From positions 1-36,340 of the forward strand of contig JAPOGE010000012.1 in NCBI GenBank assembly GCA_028283345.1: 36,340 nucleotides of DNA, given 5' to 3'. The notes beneath the pieces are model-generated. The model worked only from the letters and a program-made list of their open reading frames with translations, had not been told where the DNA came from and did not search any database. Numbering within the stretch: position 1 is the stretch's first letter; each line of letters starts with the position of its first letter. Shown here one piece after another: positions 2,843 to 32,513 of the stretch. This stretch comes from Candidatus Poseidoniales archaeon. GTDB lineage: Archaea; Thermoplasmatota; Poseidoniia; Poseidoniales; Poseidoniaceae. The position numbers and the translations under genes are program-made.

Positions 2843-3147
2843 ATGAACGCTGTTGCTGCCTCCCGCTGGGACCTCAAAGCGGTCTCTGAACGTCTTCCCG
2901 TGGTCATCATACTGACCACCTTACTGCTAATCGGCATCCAGGATTCCGCGACCTGACGTTGTGGCGCAATTACTGCTTCGCGGGTGCGACCATGTTCTTG
3001 ATTCTCGGCGCAATCGTCTGGGACGGTCGCCACATGATTCCGCGCACGGCCTTCTGGCTGGGATATCTCGGCTATCTGCTACACTTCGTCGGTGGCAGTT
3101 TCGGTGAGGACGACTGGCAACCTTACGAAGAACAGGTATCAAAGTAA
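2843..3147 (+). pseudogene. Small membrane-protein gene broken by a frameshift
   Basis: An ATG at 2843 with AGGAG seven bases upstream opens a frame encoding a hydrophobic segment (LPVVIILTTLLLIGI) that stops at 2956. The next frame then continues as FRDLTLWRNYCFAGATMF and reads through two more hydrophobic segments to a stop at 3147. Joined, the two halves make a plausible roughly 100-residue, three-span membrane protein, so a single-base frameshift near 2935-2955 is likely, either a real mutation or a sequence error. The last 14 codons (GEDDWQPYEE..) belong to a 73-bp repeat shared with the end of the acidic-protein gene at 33.3 kb. Family unknown. Confidence 0.5.
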
Positions 3148-3175
3148 GATAGGCAGCAACTGCAGACTTACGCAG
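3103..3175 (+). repeat. Dispersed 73-bp repeat, copy 1
   Basis: By my alignment, 66 of 73 bases match positions 33254-33326 without gaps. The repeat covers the last codons of the open frame (encoding EDDWQPYEE) and about 45 bases beyond the point where the other copy has its stop codon. Copy 1 has CAG where copy 2 has TAG, so this frame runs four codons longer. It ends in CTGCAGACTTACGCAG. Confidence 0.9.
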
Positions 3176-3255
3176 TGAGTACCCTCTACTCAGATCCGCA
3201 ATCGGCCATTATTGGACAGATGATACAGGCAGTATCTAGTTAGTAGCAGCCTCAT

Positions 3256-5136
3256 TCAGTGATTCAGCCTGCGGCGACCAACCAGAGCGGCGCCGAACAG
3301 TGCCGCGGCGGCGATGAATCCGGTGAACCCCGGGAATCCCTCCGACAACCTCGGCTCTGGCGTAGTGTCGACGCGTTCGCTGGGCGAGTCTGTTGCGGCA
3401 AAACCATCATCAAAGACACTGACGTACACCGTGTCTGAACTGACTTCAGGGTCGTGGATGATGTCCTCAGCGACTGGATAGTTGAAGCCGCCGATTAAGC
3501 GAACTCCACGATAACGATCGGTGCTGTTGTCAGGCAAATCCACCTGTGTGACGTTGCGACGGCCATGTATCTGATAGACGACTTCAAAGTCCATCTCCTC
3601 ACCCTCTTCGCGCACAGTGACGTTGTTGACCCATCGCAACCGGGCAAACTCTGCACCACTGTCCTCAAAGTATAGACCGCCGCCACGAATCGCCGTGGCA
3701 CGCCTGACAGCGTCGTCCTTCAACTCTCCGTGGTCAGCGCAGTAACCCGTGACCCGGTCATACCGGTTATCCACAGCGTCGAGTAATCGCTCCTTTCGAC
3801 TCTTGTTCGCCTTGTCGTCATCGGCGATGCTGCCAGTCGTATCTCCCGACCGTGACTTGGATTCCTTGTTCGCATCATCCTCTTCATCTTCAGCCTGAAC
3901 CTGATTTTCAGGCTTCATTACTTCCTTGGCTTGCTCTTCGCGCTGCAAGAATTCAGAGGGAGTCATCTTCACGCGCTCGCCCGACGTACCAACCTCCGTG
4001 ATCTTTCCCTCCTCACAGACGTTCAACCAGCCCTCGGTGTCGTACGTCGCTCCGACTGGGTCATCACTTATTTTCCGCTTGGCATGGCCGATGACCGCCT
4101 CCGGGTCAATCGCGTTTTCGAAATTAATCCGCATCCACTCGGCGACTCTCTCATCTATTCGGGTGGCGGTCGCAACCTCGGTGACCGAGAACAGTCGGCT
4201 GTCGTTTCCATCTAGGGTGTCGTTGATTGCGACACCGTCCCAACCTCTGATTCTCATATCGTATTTCCAAGTCGTTTTGAGCACGTGTCCCGTGACATCT
4301 GAGGAGGCAATCTTTCGGCTCTCCTTGACGGTTATCTCATCGTCTGCACCACGTTCAACTTCCACTCTGTAGTGAGGCATACTCTCAATATCGATGACCT
4401 CTTCTCTGGTTGTTCCGTAGAAGGTGATCTCGACCGCGTCCAACTTGGAGGTGTTGTCGCTCATCGTTCCCGCTCTGACAGCTTCGTAAGTGATGTTCTC
4501 AGCTACCAAGGTAAAGGAGAGGCTACGGTTTCGCGAGTCCGTGTCGGAAGTGTTGTCCCAATCACGCAGCGACCATTCCGCGTTCCTGAGGTCAACATAC
4601 TTGTACACCTCCTCATGAGTCATCGCCGCATCGTTGAGAATCTCATTCAGGGAACCTGCCTTGCCGTTTGAAATGACTCCGAACATGCCGTCTGAATCCT
4701 GGTCGGCGTACTCGATAATACCAGGGAATTCCGTCCGGAATAACTTCTCGACGGGGATGCCGATTCGGCCTTCAAACTCGCCGTTAACGTTGTAGATATC
4801 AGCCACGCCGAGGTAGCGCCTTTGAATGCTCACCAACTCAACCGCGCCATTCAAGGAATCATCGCCCCAGCGGACGCTGAATTCATCATCTCCTACTTTG
4901 ATGGAGACCCGCGACTTGTTGTCGGGTTCTCTGATTACTCGAATGTCCTGTTCGCGGTAGTCGATACGCTCGTTGCCGAGAATATCATCGTTGTCGTCAG
5001 AACCAGAGTTGGATGTTGACTCATCTGTTGGAGTTGCTGCTGCCATGGTTGAGGTCAATAGTATGGTGAGGGTGACGAGGAAGAACATTCTTGAGCGGGT
5101 GTTGCGGAAGTTTAACTCTGCTCTCTTAGAAAACAT
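3256..5136 (-). CDS. Secreted surface protein with PGF-CTERM anchor
   Basis: This 626-residue protein has an N-terminal signal peptide (basic start, then FFLVTLTILLTSTMAAA around residues 19-34) and a C-terminal tripartite PGF-CTERM-like tail: PGF, a short hydrophobic helix (FIAAAALFGAALV) and RRR. In archaea such tails are processed by an archaeosortase and replaced with a lipid anchor; that is family knowledge. The body is acidic and rich in Asp and Ser, with several N-x-S/T sequons (NDT, NRS, NVT, NST) suited to N-glycosylation. A low-complexity acidic linker lies around residues 405-450. I recognise no catalytic domain. It is single-standing, with a TATA box about 17-25 bases before the ATG, implying a leaderless transcript. 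Likely a cell-envelope protein. Confidence 0.85.
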   Translation of the reverse strand: MFSKRAELNFRNTRSRMFFLVTLTILLTSTMAAATPTDESTSNSGSDDNDDILGNERIDYREQDIRVIREPDNKSRVSIKVGDDEFSVRWGDDSLNGAVELVSIQRRYLGVADIYNVNGEFEGRIGIPVEKLFRTEFPGIIEYADQDSDGMFGVISNGKAGSLNEILNDAAMTHEEVYKYVDLRNAEWSLRDWDNTSDTDSRNRSLSFTLVAENITYEAVRAGTMSDNTSKLDAVEITFYGTTREEVIDIESMPHYRVEVERGADDEITVKESRKIASSDVTGHVLKTTWKYDMRIRGWDGVAINDTLDGNDSRLFSVTEVATATRIDERVAEWMRINFENAIDPEAVIGHAKRKISDDPVGATYDTEGWLNVCEEGKITEVGTSGERVKMTPSEFLQREEQAKEVMKPENQVQAEDEEDDANKESKSRSGDTTGSIADDDKANKSRKERLLDAVDNRYDRVTGYCADHGELKDDAVRRATAIRGGGLYFEDSGAEFARLRWVNNVTVREEGEEMDFEVVYQIHGRRNVTQVDLPDNSTDRYRGVRLIGGFNYPVAEDIIHDPEVSSDTVYVSVFDDGFAATDSPSERVDTTPEPRLSEGFPGFTGFIAAAALFGAALVGRRRLNH

Positions 5137-5153
5137 GTATTCGCGTTACCTTG

Positions 5154-5164
5154 TTAGTATATTA
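5154..5164 (-). promoter_or_regulatory. TATA box of the PGF-CTERM gene
   Basis: AATATACTAAC on the minus strand lies with its ATACTA core about 17-18 bases before the ATG at 5136. This spacing predicts transcription starting at or very near the start codon. The same motif and spacing precede the genes starting at 11183 and 26195. Confidence 0.55.
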
Positions 5165-5291
5165 TTGATTTGGATGCAGATTTTTCCCAAATAACATTCT
5201 GATATTTCTCCTAACTAGAGACGACCCCATGGTATTGTTTGAACGTAAAGTCCCGAATTCCATGAAACCCGACTACCTTGAAGAAAGCCGC

Positions 5292-5379
5292 AACGTGAAA
5301 ATCACGTTAAGAGCGTAGCAAATATATTCGTCGCCAGTGCGGCATGGTGTAGCGATACCACGTTGCGTCTTTTTGACGC
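5292..5379 (+). promoter_or_regulatory. Promoter with two flanking perfect dyads
   Basis: A TATA box (AAATATATTC, about 5319-5328) lies between two perfect inverted repeats: AACGTG-5 nt-CACGTT at 5292-5308 and GCGTC-TTTTT-GACGC at 5365-5379. The first is just upstream of the TATA box and the second is in the predicted leader. The downstream gene is a winged-helix regulator, so these dyads are candidate autoregulatory operators. The second could instead act as an RNA hairpin. Confidence 0.5.
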
Positions 5380-5424
5380 TGTTTACCGGTGCCTTCATTT
5401 GAGTTGAGGACCGAGGTCGGTTCG

Positions 5425-6096
5425 ATGGCACTGCTTCAGCAATGGGTCCGACAACGGCCGTGGCTAGCGGCTGGGCTGGCAGGTTTGGTCGGTGGATTCG
5501 GCGGATTATCTACTGCTTTCACTTCCAGCGGTACGATAACCACCAGGGTTTCGGATGGCGATGAACACCCACTTAGAGTCTCGATACTGCAGACCTTGGA
5601 TGAACAACCGGGGTTGTGCTATCGTGAACTGCAACGCGCTCTACAGGCGGCCAATGGCTCGCTCAGACACCACCTCGATGTCCTTCAGGTGCAACGCGCC
5701 ATCACCATCGTCAGGGTAAATGGTCGCACCTGCTATTTTGCCGGGGGGCCTAGTCAGGTCGAGGTCTTGTCGGAAATCGATGCCGACCCGCAACGTGCCG
5801 CTAGTCGGCTCGACATCGGTCTTTCGGTAGTCCAGCGCGCGATTGTCGACCACATTCGCATTGATGGCGTGCCACGCTCGCAAGCGGCATTGTCACGCCA
5901 ACTCGGTCGCTCGAAGGCGACAGTACATTCAGCCGTCAAGGTTCTGCGCCGGCGCGGTATTTTACGCCTTGACCGGCTCGACCTTGAAGATCATTTGAAG
6001 CAATCATTGGGCGAGGCGGGTTCTGCCGTGAATGATTCAAGCACCGGCCAACCCGAAGTCTCCGTTCTCGACCATACATGGAATGAAGAGCGCTGA
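5425..6096 (+). CDS. Membrane-anchored regulator with two winged-helix domains
   Basis: A 223-residue protein, starting at the ATG at 5425 because GAGGT lies seven bases upstream; a GTG at 5389 in the same frame is possible but has no such site. A hydrophobic Gly-rich segment (WLAAGLAGLVGGFGGLS) near the N-terminus suggests a membrane anchor. It is followed by a first winged helix (VSILQTLDEQPGLCYRELQRALQAANGSLRHHLDVL) and a second one with ALSRQLGRSKATVHSAVKVLRRRGIL. This is the archaeal pattern of ArsR/MarR-like tandem winged helices. The ligand and targets are unknown. Its promoter region carries two dyads that may be its own operators. The next gene is another winged-helix protein in the same direction. 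Confidence 0.8.
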   Translation: MALLQQWVRQRPWLAAGLAGLVGGFGGLSTAFTSSGTITTRVSDGDEHPLRVSILQTLDEQPGLCYRELQRALQAANGSLRHHLDVLQVQRAITIVRVNGRTCYFAGGPSQVEVLSEIDADPQRAASRLDIGLSVVQRAIVDHIRIDGVPRSQAALSRQLGRSKATVHSAVKVLRRRGILRLDRLDLEDHLKQSLGEAGSAVNDSSTGQPEVSVLDHTWNEER

Positions 6097-20787: not shown

Positions 20788-22062
20788 ATGGAAACGAAAA
20801 ATAAAACCCAAAAACAAACTCAAACCAGCACCCAAACCAGCAACTCGGTCATCACCCCTGTCGCCACTGCGACCACCGCCTCGTCCGCAATCTCGACTAG
20901 CGATATGGCTACCACGACCGTATTGGTAGCCAATCACACCGGTCATGATACCCTTCAACTAACCAAACAAGAGACCATTTCGATGGTCGAAGAACAAAGT
21001 AATAGTTGGGTCTTTGCCGATGGGCGTATGCTCGATGCCGCAGGACTGGGTGAGGCTGATTGGAATGCCATCGGCACCGTTCAGTTGGTACCCGGTCTGG
21101 TCGGTGGCGATGATGAGATTCGTGTGGCGGTGCAGATCGCTAACCATACCGGCCACAGCACCGTGTTGATGACCCAGTCCGAAGCGGTGGCAAAGGCTAC
21201 AGTTACTGCTAATTCCTGGCTTTTCATCAATGGTCAGATGGTCGATACTGCGGGACTGGCCACAGCTGATTGGGCGCAGGTGAAAACGGTGCAGATAATG
21301 CCGCAATTAATCGGCGGGGCGCATGGTGAGTCGCAGAATCTACTCATCGTCGGCGCCGGCGGCATCGGCTCAACTCTGCTCGACTTACTCGCCCCGGCGG
21401 CAAGCCGATGCAACCTCAACTGTCGAATCACGATGATGGATGATGACCTTGTCGAAGCCAACAACCTCGGCCATCAGCGGTTCGGTAATTCCGAGATTGG
21501 TATGCTCAAGGTCGACGCCTTGGCGCAGCGCCACAATACGTGTCCCGGCATCGAAGTAGTGGCGCGCGGTGAAGCATTGCGCAAAGCCGATCAATTGGCT
21601 GAATATGACGTGGTCGTGGTCGCAGTCGATCGGCCTGAGCCACGTGCACTGGTTCACAATAGTGACAAGCCTTGGCTCGACCTTCGTTGCCGTGGTGATG
21701 GCTGGATGTTGCTCGACAGCAATACCGATTCCACCATCATTTCACAACTCTCACCACCACATGAGCCGACCTCCTGCCAACTTGAGGGGGCACTCGAAGC
21801 CGGCAATATCGAATTCGGATTTGCCGCGGTAGCCGCTGCCGGGGCACAATGGTTGCTGCAACACCTGCGTCTGGTAGAAGGCGCAACGACGACCACGCCG
21901 ATGGCGCAGATGAACTCACTCACAATGGGGCCATTGCCACTTCCAGAACCAACCGCAGAGAGCCCATCGGGGCAAACTGGCGGGCAATCTTCGACGAGGT
22001 CAGAATCATCCTCGCAATCATCTTCATCCCCGACCTCGCAATCATCAGAGGTGAGTGCATGA
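20788..22062 (+). CDS. Tandem ubiquitin-like domains fused to an E1/ThiF adenylyltransferase
   Basis: A 424-residue protein in four parts. Residues 1-40 are a Thr/Gln/Ser-rich disordered leader. Two ubiquitin-like domains follow (about 42-107 and 111-177), about 45% identical to each other and each ending in Gly-Gly. Residues 183-365 form an E1/ThiF domain: ATP loop VGAGGIGS (188-195), MDDDLVEANNLGHQRF with the metal-binding acidic cluster, the GMLKVDAL lysine, VVVVAVDRP, and Cys330 in a setting like the catalytic cysteine of MoeB. The usual Arg of NLxRQ is His, and the structural CxxC zinc pairs are missing. Residues 366-424 are a Ser-rich tail. The next gene, a JAMM protease, overlaps its stop codon. 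Predicted role: adenylate and thioester-activate the released ubiquitin-like modules. TAGGA lies upstream of the ATG. Confidence 0.87.
   Translation: METKNKTQKQTQTSTQTSNSVITPVATATTASSAISTSDMATTTVLVANHTGHDTLQLTKQETISMVEEQSNSWVFADGRMLDAAGLGEADWNAIGTVQLVPGLVGGDDEIRVAVQIANHTGHSTVLMTQSEAVAKATVTANSWLFINGQMVDTAGLATADWAQVKTVQIMPQLIGGAHGESQNLLIVGAGGIGSTLLDLLAPAASRCNLNCRITMMDDDLVEANNLGHQRFGNSEIGMLKVDALAQRHNTCPGIEVVARGEALRKADQLAEYDVVVVAVDRPEPRALVHNSDKPWLDLRCRGDGWMLLDSNTDSTIISQLSPPHEPTSCQLEGALEAGNIEFGFAAVAAAGAQWLLQHLRLVEGATTTTPMAQMNSLTMGPLPLPEPTAESPSGQTGGQSSTRSESSSQSSSSPTSQSSEVSA
20911..21108 (+). other. Ubiquitin-like domain 1, ending in Gly106-Gly107
   Basis: Residues 42-107 follow the ubiquitin fold order: a first hairpin VLVANHTGHDTLQLT aligning with ubiquitin's first hairpin (shared Thr-Gly turn), a helix (KQETISMVEEQ), then VFADGRMLD... 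to VQLVPGLVGG. From VFADG to the final GG is 33 residues, exactly the ubiquitin distance from IFAGK to LRLRGG. The central loop is about ten residues shorter than in ubiquitin. Asp-Asp-Glu follows the Gly-Gly. Confidence 0.78.
21118..21318 (+). other. Ubiquitin-like domain 2, ending in Gly176-Gly177
   Basis: Residues 111-177 repeat domain 1 with about 45% identity (shared ANHTGH, NSW.F..G.M.D.AGL..ADW and TVQ..P...GG). It ends in IMPQLIGG and is joined to the E1 domain by only a short linker beginning AHGES. No lysine occurs between the Trp-Leu-Phe strand and position 166, so chain-type conjugation through a ubiquitin-like Lys48 site is not obvious. Confidence 0.78.
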
Positions 22063-22574
22063 AGGACGAGGTCAACACTGCCTTGGAACTCATTGAAGGA
22101 GGAAAGGCTGACGATACGACGGCGATAATTACTGAGTTGGCAAGCCGCGGTCAATGGGATGTGGTTTACTTGTTATCAGTTACTGCTGGGCGAGAACTGA
22201 GTGTACTATTCGATGCTGAAAACACTGTCCACGTCGATTGGGGAGGACCTGGATTGGTTCCCCTCCACCCGCCGCTGGGGATTTCCATTCCCTTCCGACT
22301 CTGGGTCCATACTCACCCGCACGGTTATGCGTACTGGTCGCAGACCGACCGCCAGAGCATTGCTCAAGGGACGATGATTCTCGAGCAGGCACAGGTACTC
22401 GGCGGCAATGGCATTCTCTCCACCACCCGACTGGAGCATCCGAGTCTGCTGGGAAGACTTGCCGATAGCGGGCCGCTCGCTCGCTGGACCGAAGAACAGG
22501 TATTGCCCTGGGAAGAATGGCAACTGCGCAAACAGAGCAACTCCTGCAAGGCAATTACCGAGGTGAGTGCTTGA
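22059..22574 (+). CDS. JAB/JAMM metalloprotease of the ubiquitin-like operon
   Basis: A 171-residue zinc peptidase of the Mpn/JAB family. The JAMM signature is intact: His84-Thr-His86, seven residues, Ser94, two residues, Asp97 (HTHPHGYAYWSQTD). Glu46 in GRELSVLF is the likely catalytic acid. JAMM enzymes cleave after the Gly-Gly of ubiquitin-like proteins, either to mature precursors or to remove conjugates. Its ATG overlaps the stop of the upstream E1 fusion (ATGA) and is preceded by GAGGTGAGTGC. Its own stop overlaps the next start in the same way, so all three genes appear coupled. The expected substrates are the two Gly-Gly junctions in the neighbouring fusion protein. Confidence 0.88.
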   Translation: MKDEVNTALELIEGGKADDTTAIITELASRGQWDVVYLLSVTAGRELSVLFDAENTVHVDWGGPGLVPLHPPLGISIPFRLWVHTHPHGYAYWSQTDRQSIAQGTMILEQAQVLGGNGILSTTRLEHPSLLGRLADSGPLARWTEEQVLPWEEWQLRKQSNSCKAITEVSA

Positions 22575-22816
22575 GAGACTGGATAGCCCGCCAACCTGAA
22601 GATGAGGACGAGCGCAACAAAATCCGCATGGCCATTGCCATGGGTGCCGGAATCAGTGTGGCAGAATTTCTCAACCGCCTGCTCGGCCATGAGCCCGATG
22701 CTTCATTGGTCGAGTCCGTGACGATGAAACTCGAGCAGGCGAAGGACGATGAAGAGCCGGTAGATATCGAAGCCTACGTCAAACAACTCACCGACTGGCA
22801 GAGCAAACTCGCCTGA
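22571..22816 (+). CDS. Small helical protein of the ubiquitin-like operon, unknown function
   Basis: An 81-residue protein if it starts at the TTG at 22571. I choose this start because it overlaps the JAMM gene stop (TTGA) and is preceded by the same GAGGTGAGTGC that precedes the JAMM start; an in-frame ATG at 22517 would overlap by 58 bases and lacks a site. The sequence is acidic and predicted mostly helical (KIRMAIAMGAGISVAEFLNRLL, VESVTMKLEQAKDD, IEAYVKQLTDWQSKLA). With the TTG start it contains no cysteine, so it cannot be a thioester-forming E2. It could be an adaptor, a substrate or an inhibitor. I do not recognise a family. Confidence 0.72.
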   Translation: MRDWIARQPEDEDERNKIRMAIAMGAGISVAEFLNRLLGHEPDASLVESVTMKLEQAKDDEEPVDIEAYVKQLTDWQSKLA

Positions 22817-31709: not shown

Positions 31710-32513
31710 CTACTCTCTTACATCGGTCTGGAAGGGCCAGCCGTAGGGAAGACCTTCCTCATCGACGAAAATCACGTTGATACCGACACCACTGCGGTGG
31801 AATGCTATCAATTCCAGACCATGGATGCTATGACCGGTCGGCGCCTTTCCCAACACTGGGCGGCGGTCGCGCCGACCGAAGAACCTGCTGCGCCATCTAG
31901 GTCTATTCTGGTCAACAATATCGGCTTCCTGCTCACCGTCTGGCTGACCTTCCTGACCTCCACTCTTTTTCGCCAATGGCCGCCTCTCTCCCTCGATATC
32001 GTCATACCATGGCAGTGGTCCGGCGGGAGAGAAATCCACCCCCAGTATCAGGTCGACCCCCTCGGTTGACTGGGCGGCGTCGGCATCGGCACCACTGGGA
32101 ATCGCCGGAGCATTGGGGTGGGTGTGCAACCAATGGGTGAATCGGGCGCCACGGGCGCCACGCGATTCTGTGAACAGTCCATCGGTCCATTCCTCAGGTA
32201 AATGGTGCACCGAATAAGAGTCGCCACGATTGACGATATGCGCTTCACCGATGATACTTCCCTGGCCGGCGAATAATCCATGGCGGTGGTCAACTCCCCT
32301 GAACAACTCGTCAACTTCACGGCGATGTGGCTTTGAGTTGTCGACCTCCAGCCCAACCAGAATCTCGTCGGGAAGTGATTGAAAGCACCAGTTCACCAAA
32401 TCGGTCAGAATTGGACCGGGCATATGTAATGAGGCGACGTATGATTCCTTTTTTTCCAGCGAGGCGAGATTATAATCAGACATCGCCCGAACCAGCCATT
32501 CCTCGACCATCAT
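31710..32513 (-). CDS. Second JAB/JAMM metalloprotease
   Basis: A 267-residue protein with an intact JAMM motif: His130-Thr-His132, seven residues, Ser140, two residues, Asp143 (HTHPNAPAIPSGAD). Glu50 or Glu56 in DEILVGLE is the likely catalytic acid. The N-terminal ~45 residues are helical. A polar, charged linker (about 175-225, rich in Gly, Arg and Gln) separates the catalytic core from a C-terminal segment HGLELIAFHRSGVGINVIF. It is larger than the operon JAMM at 22059 and has no E1 or ubiquitin-like gene beside it. It may act on the same modifier system. Two adjacent ATGs (32513 and 32510) are possible starts. It is divergent from the acidic protein at 32588. Confidence 0.82.
   Translation of the reverse strand: MMVEEWLVRAMSDYNLASLEKKESYVASLHMPGPILTDLVNWCFQSLPDEILVGLEVDNSKPHRREVDELFRGVDHRHGLFAGQGSIIGEAHIVNRGDSYSVHHLPEEWTDGLFTESRGARGARFTHWLHTHPNAPAIPSGADADAAQSTEGVDLILGVDFSPAGPLPWYDDIEGERRPLAKKSGGQEGQPDGEQEADIVDQNRPRWRSRFFGRRDRRPVLGKAPTGHSIHGLELIAFHRSGVGINVIFVDEEGLPYGWPFQTDVRE

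Follow-up and report, generated by a model that had tools for sequence, protein, structure and literature searches.

A Predicted Polyprotein of Two Ubiquitin-like Modifiers and Their Activating Enzyme in a Marine Poseidoniales Archaeon

In a 2.14-Mb draft genome of a Poseidoniales archaeon, one open reading frame (ORF) joins two head-to-tail ubiquitin-like (Ubl) domains to an E1-type activating enzyme, and the next gene, which overlaps it, encodes a protein with the motif of JAMM proteases. The product is probably a precursor that is cut after both Gly-Gly pairs by this operon JAMM, the two Ubl modifiers then being activated by the E1; processing after both pairs by the operon JAMM is well supported by comparison with related genes. 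In the relatives, the Ubls form polyubiquitin-like chains whose end is removable, and this suggests a release of the Ubls after each Gly-Gly by the neighbouring zinc protease. The domain make-up, the conserved terminal Gly, the removable tails, the catalytic motifs and the co-occurrence of the genes are all visible in the sequences themselves.

According to the proposed mechanism, the JAMM would cut the peptide bonds following Gly107 and Gly177, and the products would be Ubl1 with its N-terminal tail (residues 1–107), Ubl2 (residues 108–177, 70 aa) and a free E1 (residues 178–424, 247 aa) that starts like its unfused relatives. Two modifiers of about 65 residues each, as had been expected earlier, would not result; the Ubl cores comprise 66–67 residues, and the first product would keep a 40-residue low-complexity N-terminal tail, or measure 68 aa if translation starts at Met40. 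The freed C-terminal Gly of each Ubl would be adenylated by the E1 and the Ubl handed on, probably to proteins, from which the same JAMM may also take it off again. The cleavage as such, its order and the attachment targets of the modifiers are steps that we infer. If the mechanism holds, modifier and activating enzyme would arise from a single chain at a fixed ratio of 2:1 in the window (the whole stretch of 36,340 nucleotides that was analysed).

Layout of the Fused Gene

The features of the operon and of a second JAMM-domain gene are compiled in Table 1. Both Gly-Gly pairs named in the original prediction, the first followed by Asp-Asp-Glu and the second by Ala-His-Gly, are found in the translation, where position 21103 is the first base of codon 106 and position 21318 the last base of codon 177. 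The ubiquitin-like spacing of 33 residues in domain 1, counted inclusively from VFADG (starting at residue 75) to the last Gly, was likewise reproduced; the same inclusive spacing of 33 residues applies to domain 2, which the prediction had left aside, from LFING (starting at residue 145) to the last Gly. The other fused genes begin with N-terminal stretches unlike this extension of 40 residues. The term self-processing, on the other hand, does not fit, as the polyprotein contains no recognised protease domain; the cut would be made in trans by the product of 22059–22574.

Table 1. Features of the fused gene, its operon and the second JAMM-domain gene (positions in the window).
Feature	Position	Strand	Evidence or remark
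Ubl1-Ubl2-E1 polyprotein ORF, 424 aa	20788..22062	+	ThiF domain, E 1.5e-17
Low-complexity Thr/Ser/Gln-rich N-terminal extension, residues 1-40	20788..20907	+	Sequence
Ubl domain 1, residues 42-107	20911..21108	+	Family profile; predicted structure
Gly106-Gly107, predicted cut site 1	21103..21108	+	Alignment; low-confidence and probably flexible in the model
Spacer Asp-Asp-Glu between the Ubls	21109..21117	+	Sequence
Ubl domain 2, residues 111-177	21118..21318	+	Family profile; predicted structure
Gly176-Gly177, predicted cut site 2	21313..21318	+	Alignment; predicted structure
ThiF/E1 domain, residues 178-395	21319..21972	+	GxGGxG motif; Asp/Lys/Arg, Cys301 and Cys330 invariant
Ser/Gln-rich C-terminal tail of the E1	21973..22059	+	Sequence
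JAMM/MPN+ protease, 171 aa	22059..22574	+	Motif; its start codon shares bases with the E1 stop (ATGA)
Third operon gene, small ("P3"), 81 aa with TTG start	22571..22816	+	Adjoins the JAMM gene in relatives
Second JAMM-domain gene, judged to lie outside this system	31710..32513	-	27/29 genomes, also without Ubl matches

In the predicted structure (residue numbers of the model plus 37 give those of the ORF), each of the fused Ubls shows the order beta-beta-alpha-beta-beta-alpha-beta, which is the strand and helix order of ubiquitin. Outside the C-terminal tail, pLDDT falls below 50 at residues 104–108 and 174–179 only, that is, at the two Gly-Gly junctions. The profile of the Ubl family aligns with residues 40–76 of ubiquitin without gaps and ends on the same Gly-Gly, in a weak match: single copies reach E values of 0.36–1.4, and the low E values of long chains result from the summing of repeats. 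No Pfam family matched the Ubl pair of the window; the ThiS model matched two of 16 Ubl members (best E 2.3e-5), and unrelated models matched more members, more weakly. Among 20 aligned Ubl domains, the copies are 26–55% identical to Ubl1 of the window, and G65 and G66 provide two of the five invariant columns. Together with the terminal Gly kept at every internal domain end (see below), this indicates that the Gly-Gly at the Ubl ends is more than chance.

Ubl Genes among the Poseidoniales

The survey covered 170 genomes of the family and a sample of 292 genomes of the order Poseidoniales (marine group II), and removal of identical sequences left 128 distinct Ubl ORFs, 124 of them unfused to an E1. 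Unfused ORFs free of open ends and unread residues (n = 111) carry one (50), two (41), three (19) or four (1) head-to-tail copies. The Ubl-Ubl-E1 fusion is found in four genomes from two genera (G000 and G169; G131 and G132), the fused gene of G169 being interrupted by unread bases. Both Gly-Gly pairs are kept in all four fused genes, with spacers that differ between the two genera: the fused Ubls are separated by eight residues in genus g9, as opposed to Asp-Asp-Glu in the window. The dN/dS ratios of the two fused Ubls, from short alignments in both comparisons, are 0.18 and 0.27 for G000 and G169, and 0.05 and 0.08 for G131 and G132, pointing to purifying selection on both domains. In a sample of 292 genomes of the phylum, all 37 genomes with a match fell within the same order at the sensitivity used, and a scan of viral contigs for a viral origin, made with the single ORF and able to reach close relatives only, gave no match.

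These data bear on the possibility that the fusion stays uncut, in which case the Ubls would have a lasting structural or regulatory role and the Gly-Gly pairs would be a legacy of the unfused genes. Cleavage is deduced here from sequence comparison, and the fusion may be recent, so that the pairs could be remnants. We nevertheless regard an uncut fusion as highly improbable: the fused Gly-Gly pairs persist in two genera, with differing spacers and under purifying selection, and in the three fused loci with both genes readable (the window, L005 and L006) the fused gene is directly followed and overlapped by the JAMM gene. Furthermore, no E1 of the family other than the fused one was found in G131 and G132, where an uncut chain would have to carry all activation.

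Residues beyond the Terminal Glycine

If the chains are cut after each Gly-Gly, the residues that follow the last Gly would be removed as well. Such residues, at least one, occur in 116 of the 118 unfused Ubl ORFs with a complete 3' end, and two chains end at the last Gly; these are raw ORF counts that disregard kinship between genomes. The tails consist of one residue in 58 ORFs, two in 18, three in 18, four in 5, six in 7 and at least eight in 10, one of the long tails (L112) reflecting unread residues or an assembly gap. The count leaves out the four E1-fused ORFs, four that run off the contig at the 3' end, and L122 (unread residues) and L175 (ending in FG), in which the terminal Gly was not recognised; some of the remaining 118 are open at the 5' end, and several are joined to other C-terminal domains. 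As a control served the ThiS/MoaD Ubls (PF02597), present in 28 of 29 genomes of the order and represented by the Gly-Gly-ending ORF that overlaps the family match, one for each of the 28 loci: all 28 stop exactly at Gly-Gly and none is tailed, which argues that the tails belong to the present Ubl family in these genomes. They do not define a Ubl family everywhere, since C. subterraneum has tailed SAMP precursors as well as a tailed ubiquitin, the two kinds being described as trimmed each by its own JAMM-family enzyme (PMC6043591). Among the 107 short C-terminal tails (1–8 residues), 26 have Cys as their last residue (RAC, SVC, NHC, EVC and others; examples are L034, L064, L106 and L145).

Near the end of the profile, GG, QAG, LAG and QYG were accepted as end motifs and other ends were scored "none"; the three such cases concern last domains, of which one is truncated by a contig end. 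At internal domain ends, 95 between Ubls and four at an E1, the terminal Gly is kept in 99 of 99 cases (84 GG, 15 AG), with 1–8 residues between it and the next Ubl. Where AG occurs, in 15 genes, both ends have it, and no gene mixes GG and AG. Such coordination would be expected of two ends used by the same enzymes; it could also stem from repeat homogenisation or common descent. The AG genes (L047, L072, L074, L076, L077, L086, L092, L094, L096–L098, L101, L104, L117 and L119) have two copies, and after AG comes Q, L or a spacer. Identical repeats occur in L044 (both copies) and in L106 (at least two of the three), and some Ubl genes seem to have multiplied or homogenised their copies recently.

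The predicted JAMM cut after both Gly-Gly pairs thus finds comparative support in the tails, in the internal Gly residues that were kept and in the co-occurrence with JAMM genes described below. Biochemical precedents come from archaeal enzymes: an archaeal Rpn11/JAMM protein is reported to remove a 9-aa tail of pro-ubiquitin exactly after Gly-Gly (PMC5654768), and cleavage of a Ub-GFP fusion is described as well (PMC5654768; PMC6043591). The cut may require the Gly-Gly, yet a JAMM need not depend on it, since HvJAMM1 is stated to cut linear SAMP1 fusions lacking the diglycine (PMC8832034).

The Operon JAMM and a Second JAMM-domain Protein

The JAMM/MPN+ motif, given as E-xn-H-[ST]-H-x7-S-x2-D (PMC300881), is present in full in the product of 22059–22574 (E46, H84-T-H86-x7-S94-x2-D97) and in 33 of 33 aligned rows; it was also found in nine of nine rows that include another family of the order. 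The Pfam match to Prok-JAB (E 0.0028) lies below the cut-off. The structure model is of moderate quality (pLDDT 76), and Foldseek returned nothing from the PDB at E ≤ 0.001. The best structural match is 5lda, P. furiosus JAMM1 with SAMP2 (Z 6.7, below 8; rmsd 3.7; 106 aligned residues), and most of the other matches listed are JAMM/MPN chains with Z of 6.7 or less, among them AMSH-type deubiquitinases, C. subterraneum Rpn11 with ubiquitin, Cap3 and a bacterial Bub protein. With Z values in this range and nothing from Foldseek at that limit, the assignment as a JAMM protein rests mainly on the motif.

Among the 292 genomes of the order, the Ubl was matched in 126 (E ≤ 1e-3), the JAMM in 137 (E ≤ 1e-10) and the E1 in 131 (E ≤ 1e-20); all three occur in 112 and any of them in 148, in raw genome counts that disregard kinship. 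The JAMM is present in 115 of the 126 Ubl genomes and was not found in 11, for which incompleteness of the metagenome-assembled genomes may be the reason. E1 and JAMM form one ORF in another family of the order, at five loci (L113, L114, L115, L116 and L118) that have a gene for a 76-aa Ubl monomer (PGLTGG followed by Q or F) upstream.

The precursor might instead be cut by another enzyme, either the JAMM-domain protein encoded at 31710, which had been put forward as a further candidate, or a non-JAMM protease. The 31710 protein does contain H-x-H-x7-S-x2-D and matches Prok-JAB weakly (E 1.2e-4, short of the cut-off), and P. furiosus JAMM1 is described as cutting several Ubls (PMC6043591). Promiscuous archaeal JAMMs being known from that account, cleavage by the 31710 enzyme in vitro is conceivable. 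As a dedicated partner it fits poorly: its gene is near-universal in the order, kept in 27 of 29 genomes, and it is retained where no Ubl match was reported (G020, G033, G127, G170, G171, G173 and G174), so that it probably has a housekeeping role in some other process. The 22059-type JAMM, on the other hand, tracks the Ubl and the E1 across genomes, and the two JAMM-family enzymes of C. subterraneum are each reported to cut their own Ubl only (PMC6043591). Processing by another enzyme is for these reasons judged very unlikely, and the operon JAMM remains the preferred protease. Many matches to the 31710 protein break around residues 185–210, which suggests a variable insert in this region.

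The E1 and the Third Gene of the Operon

The E1 part matches PF00899 with 64 bits (cut-off 28.1), and the structure comparison of the E1-containing model gave Z values of about 20 to ThiF, MoeB and UBA3, the match list being filled by the E1 part. GxGGxG and the conserved Asp, Lys and Arg of an adenylating Rossmann fold are present in the alignment. All ten aligned E1 sequences share Cys301 and Cys330 (residue numbers refer to the 424-aa ORF), which are candidate thioester cysteines. In the family and the order the same E1 is mostly unfused, with the JAMM gene and the third gene after it in the loci that were read. PRTRC_ThiF (TIGR03736) is the best NCBIfam match of the polyprotein, yet it scores 54.6 bits against a cut-off of 144.75, and a PRTRC system was rejected as an assignment. 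The same applies to a known defence system, as the best 25 of 29 PADLOC matches of the ORF are all to generic E1-E2 models; the JAMM protein matched one JAB model of PADLOC (E 0.038).

The E1 would be left with a short N-terminus, as foreseen: cutting at the second Gly-Gly would leave 11 residues before GxGGxG in the window and 17 in genus g9, while in 30 distinct unfused E1 ORFs the most frequent length is 13 (12 ORFs; range 8–46, depending on the start codon). In a different scenario, one junction alone is cut, for example at the first Gly-Gly, and Ubl2, left on the E1, serves in docking, oligomerisation or auto-inhibition and not as a substrate. Bacterial Ubl-ThiF fusions are known, for which a role of the fused Ubl unlike that of standalone ThiS has been suggested (PMC1779556), and Ubl-E1-TBP fusions are reported from Thaumarchaeota (PMC2948915). 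Besides, the fusion need not supply every Ubl, since the window genome contains a gene for a monomeric Ubl ending in GG-Ile (contig C197) and a second set of E1, JAMM and third gene (contig C8). Cleavage at a single junction is still held to be unlikely, because both Ubls keep Gly-Gly in all four fused genes, the distance from the second Gly-Gly to the E1 differs between the genera, and none of the 30 listed unfused E1s of the family has an N-terminal Ubl. E1s adenylate a free C-terminal carboxylate, which the internal Gly of a tethered Ubl2 lacks, so that the domain is an unlikely substrate in this state. Along these lines, uncut archaeal pro-ubiquitin is described as refractory to its E1 until the tail is removed (PMC5654768), and the suggestion that domain 2 might stay tethered as a built-in substrate of its E1 is not supported. 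Cleavage at both junctions is therefore retained as the preferred reading.

A UBC-fold E2 (PF00179) was matched neither in the 29 genomes nor in any of 14 control genomes, and no E2 or E3 was identified for this system. The TTG start of P3 overlaps the stop of the JAMM gene; its product has invariant R, P, D, E, G, G and D residues in 12 aligned rows and matched no known family.

Relation to Known Systems

In 2006, Iyer, Burroughs and Aravind predicted bacterial operons that combine tandem Ubls with JAB and E1 (PMC1779556). The bacterial polyUbl type 6e of that account is similar to the present system, with one to three Ub-like repeats per protein, an E1-like enzyme and, in most cases, a JAB peptidase. 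The JAB is mostly placed at the N-terminus of the E1 in type 6e, whereas the JAMM described here is a separate protein encoded after the E1 or, in the other family of the order, the C-terminal part of the E1. Type 6e is further described with an inactive E2-like domain and a metal-binding protein. Pfam recognises no E2-like domain in the operon proteins here. The table row for type 6e lists bacteria only, in contrast to the archaeal system with up to four copies and with Ubl-Ubl-E1 in one chain. The Ub operon of Caldiarchaeum subterraneum shares the removal by JAMM of a precursor tail after Gly-Gly, prior to activation by the E1 (PMC5654768, PMC6043591). It is composed of a single Ub and separate E1, E2 and RING E3 proteins, and the excerpts of these sources describe neither tandem copies nor a Ub-E1 polyprotein. 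In D. radiodurans, MoaD-MoaE is another fusion of a Ubl to its partner that needs a JAMM cut to work, leaving a C-terminal Gly (PMC8832034); there, however, a single sulfur-carrier Ubl is joined to MoaE, whereas the partner in the window is the E1.

Eukaryotic polyubiquitin and ubiquitin-ribosomal-protein genes also consist of head-to-tail copies cut after Gly-Gly, include Gly-Gly-joined fusions and vary in copy number between species (PMC11354881). They differ from the present family, in which the copies are merely 26–55% identical to Ubl1 of the window, are separated by spacers of 1–8 residues and are presumably cut by a JAMM. In eukaryotic polyubiquitin, an extra residue follows the last copy. 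In ISG15-like proteins, to our knowledge, the first Ubl lacks a working Gly-Gly. BilA of the bacterial Bil operons resembles the fused gene in having two Ubl domains and in being proteolysed by a JAB/JAMM deubiquitinase (PMC11354881), but an E2 is present in these operons and BilA and the E1 are separate proteins, whereas Ubls and E1 form one chain here.

For a marine group II genome, UCH and RING genes have been reported, and the excerpt of that report does not mention tandem Ubls (PMC4327156). Among the matches listed from the open-licence literature, a scope outside of which the recent bacterial "Bub" work lies, there were neither polyubiquitin-like precursors in Poseidoniales nor a Ubl-Ubl-E1 polyprotein. 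Bacterial polyUbl operons and the processing of archaeal pro-ubiquitin are thus already known, while the archaeal polyUbl genes and the Ubl-Ubl-E1 version are unreported among these matches. A wider proposal, for which we see even chances, is a polyubiquitin-style supply line in Poseidoniales, in which capped head-to-tail Ubls and Gly-Gly-joined fusions (to E1, AAA ATPase and others) would all be matured by one dedicated JAMM. If true, Ubls would be encoded as polyproteins in a widespread group of marine archaea, separately from the Caldiarchaeum-type operon; this would extend polyubiquitin-like precursors to archaea, and an E1 would be seen to be produced in one chain with its modifier. One fusion protein and one protease form a small set for a direct test of precursor processing, and the genes with one to four copies, AG-type ends or Gly-Gly-joined fusions form a comparative set for the origin of polyubiquitin genes and the likeness of their copies.

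Further Ubl Fusions and an Outlying Locus

Ubls are joined to other domains in additional loci. In L169 (genome G300), the ORF at 3051–4724 links a Ubl via Gly-Gly to an AAA ATPase (PF00004, E 3.4e-20), and the ORF at 5095–5520 encodes another Ubl with a Cys-containing extension of 55 residues; both adjoin E1 and JAMM genes. An upstream ORF of 906 aa resembles what we take to be a phage-type RNA polymerase, so that this locus may be mobile. At L044:3063–4514, two Ubls are joined via Gly-Gly to a 315-residue domain, and at L188:2259–3341 one Ubl is joined via Gly-Gly to a 290-residue domain. Neither domain has a significant Pfam match; the genes for E1, JAMM and the third protein come after the fused Ubl gene in L044. 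Finally, L120, a contig labelled as a gammaproteobacterial metagenome-assembled genome and possibly mis-binned, carries an archaeal-type Ubl (ending in QYG, with no tail) together with an E1.
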